A stretch of 64,000 nucleotides of DNA, taken from contig CABYCU010000002.1 in NCBI GenBank assembly GCA_902517565.1, positions 1-64,000 of the forward strand. Direction: 5' to 3'. The DNA comes from an uncultured SAR86 cluster bacterium. GTDB taxonomy: Bacteria; Pseudomonadota; Gammaproteobacteria; Magnimaribacterales; Magnimaribacteraceae. The position numbers were made by a program, and so were the translations under genes. The notes under the pieces are model-generated. The model saw only the letters and a list, made by a program, of their open reading frames with translations, did not search any database and had not been told where the DNA came from. Every line of letters starts with the position of its first letter. Within the stretch, counting starts at the first letter, position 1. Of the stretch, positions 24,210 to 26,363 are shown in pieces.

Positions 24210-24238
24210 GTGTCAAATTTGTTACAAATGTAAGAAAG
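24210..24238 (-). promoter_or_regulatory. Pho-box-like triple direct repeat before DUF47-PiT
   Basis: On the minus strand three 7-base units recur at an 11-base period: CTTTCTT, TTGTAAC and TTGACAC. Against the PhoB unit CTGTCAT they match at 5, 4 and 4 positions. The 11-base spacing is exactly that of Pho boxes, and a phoB gene is encoded about 2.8 kb upstream. The unit matches are only moderate, so the assignment rests on spacing and context. Confidence 0.45.
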
Positions 24239-25274: not shown

Positions 25275-26363
25275 TTAGCTTTTTTTGTTCAGTGTGAACC
25301 AGAAAATTGTACCCTCAGGATAGGCTTTTTCGTTACCCACAGAACCGCCCATAAGATTTACTAAATTCTTGACTATAGATAAACCTAATCCTGTGCCCTC
25401 TTTTAAAGAAGTATTGTTATTTTGAATTCTGAAGAATCTCTCAAATACTCTTTCTCTTTGATCTGCGGATATGCCCTGTCCATGATCTTCAATTTCAAAT
25501 CTCACTTTAGAGCCTTGGTCTTTCATGTTAATAATTATCTCATTACATTCATCAGTAATCCCATATTTAACTGAATTTTCTATAAGATTATCAATAATTT
25601 GTGTTAATGCCTTAATGTCACAAATTACCTTTATATCTGAAGGGATATTATTAATAATCTTTACATCAGGATTATTTGATAAGACAGAGTTAATTGAATT
25701 TTTAAAAATCTCTGAAATACCATTTTCTGCAAGCTCAAGATTGTATTCACCCGATTCTATAGTTGATAAATTCAAAATATCTTCCAGAAGATATGAGAGC
25801 TTTTCTGAGTTTTTTAAGATTGCCTTAGAGAACTTTTGTGCAATCTCTTTATCATCTAAAGCGCCATCAACTAGGGATTCTGAATTAGCTCTTATAACAG
25901 CAACGGGAGTTCTTAATTCATGAGATAAATTAGCAATAAAATCTTTTCTAATATTCTCTAATTTCTTTATTCGGGTGATATCAATAAAAACAAGTGTTGT
26001 TTCAAGTGATTCATTGTCGAAGGTCGCATTTACTAAAAAACTTTTATAGCCTGGTTCAACACCAAAAATTTCTTCTTCTGCTGATGAATCAAGTTTCGCG
26101 CTTTTTATTAAATTAATGATCTCGCCGTTATTAAAAACCTCAACTAATTTACTACCTACATAGTCTTTAGGGATATTTAAATCCAGGGAAGATACTGAAT
26201 TAATTTGAGCGATACAGTCATTTGCATCTAAGACAATAAGGCCGATACCCGTCTTATCTAATATTTGCGGTAACTCTTTTGTGGTTAAAGTACCATTTTG
26301 AACAATGGTACTAGATTCTATTTTTTTTTCTTTTACAAAGAGACGTAAGATTTTAGACAACAT
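25275..26363 (-). CDS. phoR: PhoR-like histidine kinase without membrane segments
   Basis: A PAS domain (about residues 35-125, GIGLIVLDANDCIAQINS) is followed by the H-box FIANLSHELRTPVAVIRANS, an N-box QIIDNLIENSVKYG, and G-boxes EDHGQGIS and GTGLGLSIVKNL. All kinase parts are intact. E. coli-type PhoR carries N-terminal membrane helices; here the start MLSKILRLFVKEKK has none. An in-frame upstream ATG at 26387 adds only 8 residues inside the phoB tail. The kinase should be cytosolic and phosphorylate the adjacent PhoB. No PstSCAB or PhoU gene is in the window. Confidence 0.9.
   Translation of the reverse strand: MLSKILRLFVKEKKIESSTIVQNGTLTTKELPQILDKTGIGLIVLDANDCIAQINSVSSLDLNIPKDYVGSKLVEVFNNGEIINLIKSAKLDSSAEEEIFGVEPGYKSFLVNATFDNESLETTLVFIDITRIKKLENIRKDFIANLSHELRTPVAVIRANSESLVDGALDDKEIAQKFSKAILKNSEKLSYLLEDILNLSTIESGEYNLELAENGISEIFKNSINSVLSNNPDVKIINNIPSDIKVICDIKALTQIIDNLIENSVKYGITDECNEIIINMKDQGSKVRFEIEDHGQGISADQRERVFERFFRIQNNNTSLKEGTGLGLSIVKNLVNLMGGSVGNEKAYPEGTIFWFTLNKKS

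Follow-up and report, generated by a model that had tools for sequence, protein, structure and literature searches.

We find that an uncultured SAR86 bacterium encodes a PhoR-type histidine kinase without transmembrane helices in the same locus as a DUF47-family protein of PhoU-like fold. The locus lies within a 64,000-nucleotide stretch of one contig, hereafter the window, and judging from its gene content is most likely a compact phosphate-starvation unit. The textbook model of phosphate sensing requires a membrane kinase, Pst and PhoU. The best explanation for the SAR86 locus, which we regard as probable by a modest degree, is that DUF47 takes the place of PhoU and relays phosphate status to the membrane-free PhoR.

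Results

Gene content and predicted regulation of the locus

A profile search of the window revealed five minus-strand genes in the order phoB, phoR, porin, DUF47 and PiT (Table 1), with the phoB/phoR pair standing among phosphate genes. The start codon of phoR is an ATG at 26363, which gives an 11 bp overlap with phoB, and both this overlap and the gene order are as the first-pass annotation had described them. That annotation had also reported the absence of Pst and PhoU genes nearby, and we found none in the vicinity of phoR within the window. The best NCBIfam match of PhoB was the PhoB family TIGR02154, at 244 bits, which is under the cut-off of 296, and DUF47 passed its cut-offs for PF01865 (128 bits versus 24) and TIGR00153 (118 versus 104). 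The DUF47 stop and the PiT start are 9 bp apart, and the adjacency of these genes is kept in relatives.

Table 1. Features of the phosphate locus in the window.
Feature	Position	Strand	Basis or remark
Cytidylyltransferase-like protein, 138 aa	27093-27509		Adjoins phoB in most loci of the window's family (f1)
phoB, OmpR-family response regulator, 227 aa	26353-27036	-	Response_reg and Trans_reg_C
phoR, histidine kinase without transmembrane helices, 362 aa	25275-26363	-	Pfam, NCBIfam, hydropathy, AlphaFold model
PhoR residues 1-30, amphipathic basic helix (2-10) and disordered linker; site of transmembrane helices in relatives	26274-26363	-	AlphaFold, helical moment
PhoR PAS fold, residues 31-128	25980-26273	-	AlphaFold secondary structure and confidence; Foldseek
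PhoR DHp helices, residues 130-203, phospho-acceptor His148 in SHELRTP	25755-25976	-	HisKA
PhoR catalytic ATPase domain	25284-25730	-	HATPase_c
Porin, 308 aa	24263-25189	-	Porin_4, E 4e-29
Pho-box-like repeat TTGTAAC-aaat-TTGACAC, 5' of DUF47	24210-24227	-	13/14 positions of the SAR86 motif
DUF47 / PitR, PhoU-like fold, 225 aa	23461-24138	-	PF01865 and TIGR00153 above cut-off; model structural matches
PiT phosphate transporter, 421 aa	22186-23451	-	PF01384 PHO4, 404 bits, over cut-off

A Pho-box-like repeat is located about 70 bp 5' of DUF47. At held-out loci, the SAR86 motif was present in 10 of 56 intergenic regions before phosphate genes versus 4 of 84 intergenic regions, and this comparison (p 0.013) is the figure to trust, because some of these loci had also served to derive the SAR86-adjusted motif. 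The E. coli Pho box consensus gave no signal over shuffles in most regions, and the assembled genome, which is 74.6% complete, contains no exact site of the SAR86-adjusted motif. The putative Pho box supports, without proving, control of DUF47-PiT by PhoB.

The PhoR kinase has an intact core and no membrane domain

A scan with a 19-residue hydropathy window, at a threshold of 1.6 for transmembrane helices, detected none in the window PhoR, which indicates that the N-terminal membrane domain is absent, as first claimed. The maximum was 1.36 even from an alternative GTG start, whereas the membrane PhoRs of SAR86 reach maxima of 2.2-2.8. The protein had also been called an intact PAS-kinase, and its PAS-HisKA-HATPase core (HisKA at residues 139-205, HATPase_c at 249-360) indeed retains the H, N, D and G boxes; H148 and the N, D and G box residues are invariant in 25 SAR86 kinases. 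Foldseek returned a near whole-length match of the PhoR model to WalK. The score for the PhoR equivalog TIGR02966 was 199 bits, under the 334-bit cut-off; the three membrane PhoRs of SAR86 that were scanned fell short of it as well (231-247 bits). The nearest public matches of PhoR, 89-93% identical, come from single-cell or metagenome genomes of SAR86.

The description of a short soluble N-terminus held with respect to the missing transmembrane helix, although the solubility of this segment is in some doubt: the first 11 residues (MLSKILRLFVK) make up a basic, amphipathic helix with a muH of 0.73, equalled in 0.4% of shuffles. The helix could tether PhoR to the membrane surface, which is only suggested because it is clear in genus g1 and in G150, a genome of another SAR86 family, and weak in genera g3, g6 and g2. 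MinE, wanted as a local control, is absent from the window's family. In comparisons with relatives, dN/dS was 0.15-0.18 for PhoR and 0.05-0.06 for DUF47, and the first 30 PhoR codons evolve fast (1.3 versus 0.10 for the remainder), which indicates from substitution rates that purifying selection acts on the PhoR core and on DUF47.

Loss of the sensor region recurs in SAR86

A 362-residue PhoR is encoded in six g1 genomes, including that of the window, and a 358-residue PhoR with 53-55% identity, likewise starting beside phoB, is encoded in three other genera of the family (g2, g3 and g6). Comparison of their N-termini showed the same membrane-free layout in independent genomes of all four genera, and the only reading frame upstream of the phoR start is that of phoB. 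The membrane-free PhoRs of f1 form one clade (support 100/100). In G150, a separate membrane-free PhoR is nested among 449-residue membrane forms; this 360-residue protein (L103:5636-6718) abuts phoB, and DUF47 was not found in the genome, which indicates that DUF47 is not required for reduction of the PhoR sensor part. Across the order, the periplasmic sensor domain of PhoR was lost in several lineages, from about 590 to about 450 residues, and sensor-part reduction appears from these comparisons to be a recurring trend in SAR86. Outside SAR86, no membrane-free PhoR was detected among 369 gammaproteobacteria at E 1e-45. A short PhoR fragment in G118 was left out, as its genes look broken by assembly frameshifts; many genes on that locus (L117) are split, including phoB and phoR, probably for this reason.

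SAR86 has nearly abandoned PhoU

No match to PhoU, PstC or PstS was detected in the 74.6%-complete assembled genome. PhoU (PF01895) was found in none of the 35 genomes of the family, which include the single-contig G029 and the 96% complete G016, and was above cut-off in 1 of 203 genomes of the order, using a search that was positive in 13 of 14 control genomes. The negative control genome was that of B. subtilis, which is reported to have no PhoU (PMC13170248). PstC was above cut-off in 14/203 genomes of the order and, like PstS, in a single family genome, G026; PiT is present in 146/203. We also observed pstSCAB without phoU or DUF47 at four loci of families f2 and f3 (L075, L076, L077 and L079), where the genes that follow pst are unrelated (among them an A24 peptidase and a porin); it is unusual for a Pst system to have no PhoU-like protein nearby. 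The rarity of PhoU and these pst loci suggest that the SAR86 order has nearly abandoned PhoU. Because close relatives likewise yielded no pst-phoU, real absence from the window's genome is far likelier than an assembly gap, and the search beyond the window therefore did not refute the proposed replacement of PstSCAB-PhoU.

DUF47 accompanies the membrane-free PhoR of family f1

The window DUF47 matches PF01865 and has no match to PF01895, and its model resembles both S. oneidensis SO_3770 (2olt; TM about 0.9) and P. aeruginosa PhoU (4q25; TM 0.71, rmsd 4.0), which indicates a PhoU fold. By these searches, it is the only PhoU-like protein found in the window's genome. DUF47 was above cut-off in f1 only, where every membrane-free PhoR with enough contig has DUF47 beside it; no membrane PhoR of the order does. 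The pairing looks strong from these loci and rests on few independent events: the membrane-free f1 PhoR arose once, which gives the pairing little statistical weight. Furthermore, five genomes (G004, G006, G011, G015 and G016) encode DUF47-PiT without phoBR, which indicates that DUF47 also functions independently of PhoR. Among 30 gammaproteobacterial DUF47 loci, 28 adjoin PiT and none has a PhoBR that could be recognised within about 1.5 kb.

Three states of the phosphate locus in the family

Phosphate loci of the family occur in three states, mostly at one chromosomal site with TauD-like, cytidylyltransferase-like and SRAP neighbours. In state A (G014, G021, G023 and G029), phoB is accompanied by a PhoR of 577 residues that has membrane and periplasmic parts, and by ppx, ppk2, PiT, a TonB receptor and a phytase, with the G023 contig ending inside the TonB receptor. 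No DUF47 is present in these four loci, and their PiT is 57% identical to that of the window. State B, which comprises a membrane-free PhoR, porin, DUF47 and PiT, was found in the window and eight other genomes; G003 is also in state B, with its PhoR cut by the contig end. Genera g1 and g6 each hold both states. Between them, PhoR and PiT of the A module are 93-99% identical, in comparison with 63-81% for some neighbours, which points to module exchange. The A loci of G029 (L100) and G014 (L101) occupy the same site, and the module is common to two genera.

State C was observed in G026, one genome that is half complete, in which the order is phoB-phoR-porin-pstS-pstC-pstA-pstB-DUF47-PiT and PhoR is 92.5% identical. 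DUF47 begins 60 bp after pstB, which is the place of phoU in the canonical locus of G187 (L080). When G026 was compared with G025 and G027, dS was 0.04-0.26 in phoB, phoR, porin and PiT versus about 2.1 in DUF47, which suggests that pst and DUF47 share a history separate from that of their flanks. Based on these distances, pst and DUF47 of G026 were probably exchanged as one block. The comparison of loci supports DUF47, rather than PiT, as the apparent constant partner of the membrane-free PhoR in f1; PiT need not be the partner, because G026 has Pst as well.

Discussion

From this arrangement we infer a signal that passes from DUF47 to PhoR, together with its direction and the part of PiT. 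A PhoR-type kinase without its membrane and periplasmic parts would read intracellular or import-linked phosphate status. With ample phosphate, DUF47 would associate with PiT, or with Pst in cells that have it, and act on the PAS/kinase core so as to keep PhoR a phosphatase; the amphipathic N-terminus of PhoR may place this step close to the membrane. When phosphate is scarce, this brake would be lifted and PhoB phosphorylated, and expression of porin, DUF47-PiT and other genes would rise. The first-pass annotation had proposed that DUF47 and PiT together may replace PstSCAB-PhoU as the sensing partner. The DUF47 half of that proposal gained ground from the position of DUF47 after pstB in G026 and its entry with the pst block, from its presence beside all f1 membrane-free PhoRs with enough contig, and from S. 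aureus genetics (PMC13170248). The interpretation as a whole is only partly supported, because the partner may be something other than PiT, given the Pst of G026, DUF47-PiT occurs without PhoBR, G150 has no DUF47, the membrane-free PhoR of f1 has a single origin, and contact between PhoR and DUF47 is hypothetical.

The main rival is direct detection of a cytoplasmic ligand by the PAS domain of PhoR, with DUF47 only tuning PiT and being a neighbour as part of the PiT operon. We consider this a real contender, though clearly the less probable one. DUF47-PiT pairs are standard among gammaproteobacteria without a nearby PhoBR, and occur without it within f1; the G150 PhoR is membrane-free without DUF47; four pst loci of the order have neither PhoU nor DUF47; and the PhoR of Salmonella is reported to answer an intracellular phosphorus signal (PMC11389368). 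However, a purely PiT-specific helper does not explain why DUF47 in G026 comes directly after pstB and has a history in common with pst, nor does it fit the units at the same site that combine a membrane PhoR and PiT without DUF47. A further, improbable reading holds that the kinase has ceased to act as a true phosphate sensor and is on by default, with PhoB activity set by expression or cross-talk. N-terminal deletions of E. coli PhoR leave the kinase on by default, and the missing transmembrane helices, the little constraint on the first 30 codons and the repeated reduction of membrane parts in SAR86 are consistent with such a state. Conservation of the PAS domain and whole core (dN/dS about 0.10 past residue 30) argues against it, as does the retention of PhoR in four genera, with phosphate genes next to it in every locus whose contig extends far enough.

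Two further explanations attribute the unusual features to the assembly. A normal pst-phoU operon could lie in the unassembled quarter of the genome, which its incompleteness would allow, but the lack of PhoU in all 35 family genomes, single-contig G029 and 96% complete G016 among them, and the restriction of PstC and PstS to G026 make this very unlikely. Still less credible is a frameshift that hides membrane helices upstream, a caveat raised at the outset: this is excluded because the sequence upstream of the phoR start is the coding end of phoB and relatives of four genera have the same layout, with PhoR of similar length. DUF47 acting in PhoU's place remains the preferred reading.

The PhoR proteins of S. 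aureus and B. subtilis are membrane proteins; cyanobacterial SphS is not known to have clear transmembrane segments, and the SphS-SphR-SphU system works with Pst and PhoU (SphU), not DUF47-PiT. That system resembles the one proposed here in that a negative regulator of PhoU type accompanies a phosphate-responsive kinase of PhoR type (PMC3264485). The S. aureus PitR-PitA/PhoPR system also combines PiT and an adjacent DUF47-family protein with a PhoBR-type system, and PitR was shown genetically to repress PhoPR (PMC13170248); two-hybrid assays of PitR against PhoR and PitA were negative, and the authors advise caution with that negative (PMC11705898). S. aureus differs in also having PhoU-Pst and NptA, whereas in the window's genome no PhoU-like protein other than DUF47 was found and PhoR lacks a transmembrane helix. 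The E. coli PhoR-PhoB/PstSCAB-PhoU system shares the phoBR pair, the PAS-DHp-CA core and a PhoU-fold accessory beside a transporter (PMC5775613); in contrast, the window has a PhoR without a membrane domain and DUF47 with PiT instead of PhoU or Pst, neither of which is in the 74.6%-complete genome. B. subtilis PhoPR is similar in being a PhoR system without PhoU (PF01895 was negative in our control) in a cell with DUF47 and PiT families, but its Pho response is reported to be regulated by wall teichoic acid metabolism (PMC6232261). The parts of the locus and the repression of PhoPR by PitR in S. aureus are thus already known (PMC13170248); the combination of a membrane-free PhoR, no PhoU, and DUF47 in PhoU's place and exchanged with pst is new.

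The SAR86 locus offers a compact natural system for asking how PhoR learns of phosphate, and its soluble components should lend themselves to purification. Nature supplies a small set of comparisons with and without these components, in close strains set apart by one inserted pst block or by replacement with a membrane PhoR that has no DUF47. PhoU has all but disappeared from an abundant marine clade. We raise tentatively, as a rather doubtful idea, that DUF47 could stand in for PhoU as an autonomous and swappable sensor subunit: indifferent to the transporter, it would signal to the membrane-free PhoR and pair with PiT in the majority of strains and with Pst in another. If so, phosphate signalling would need neither PhoU nor an integral-membrane kinase.
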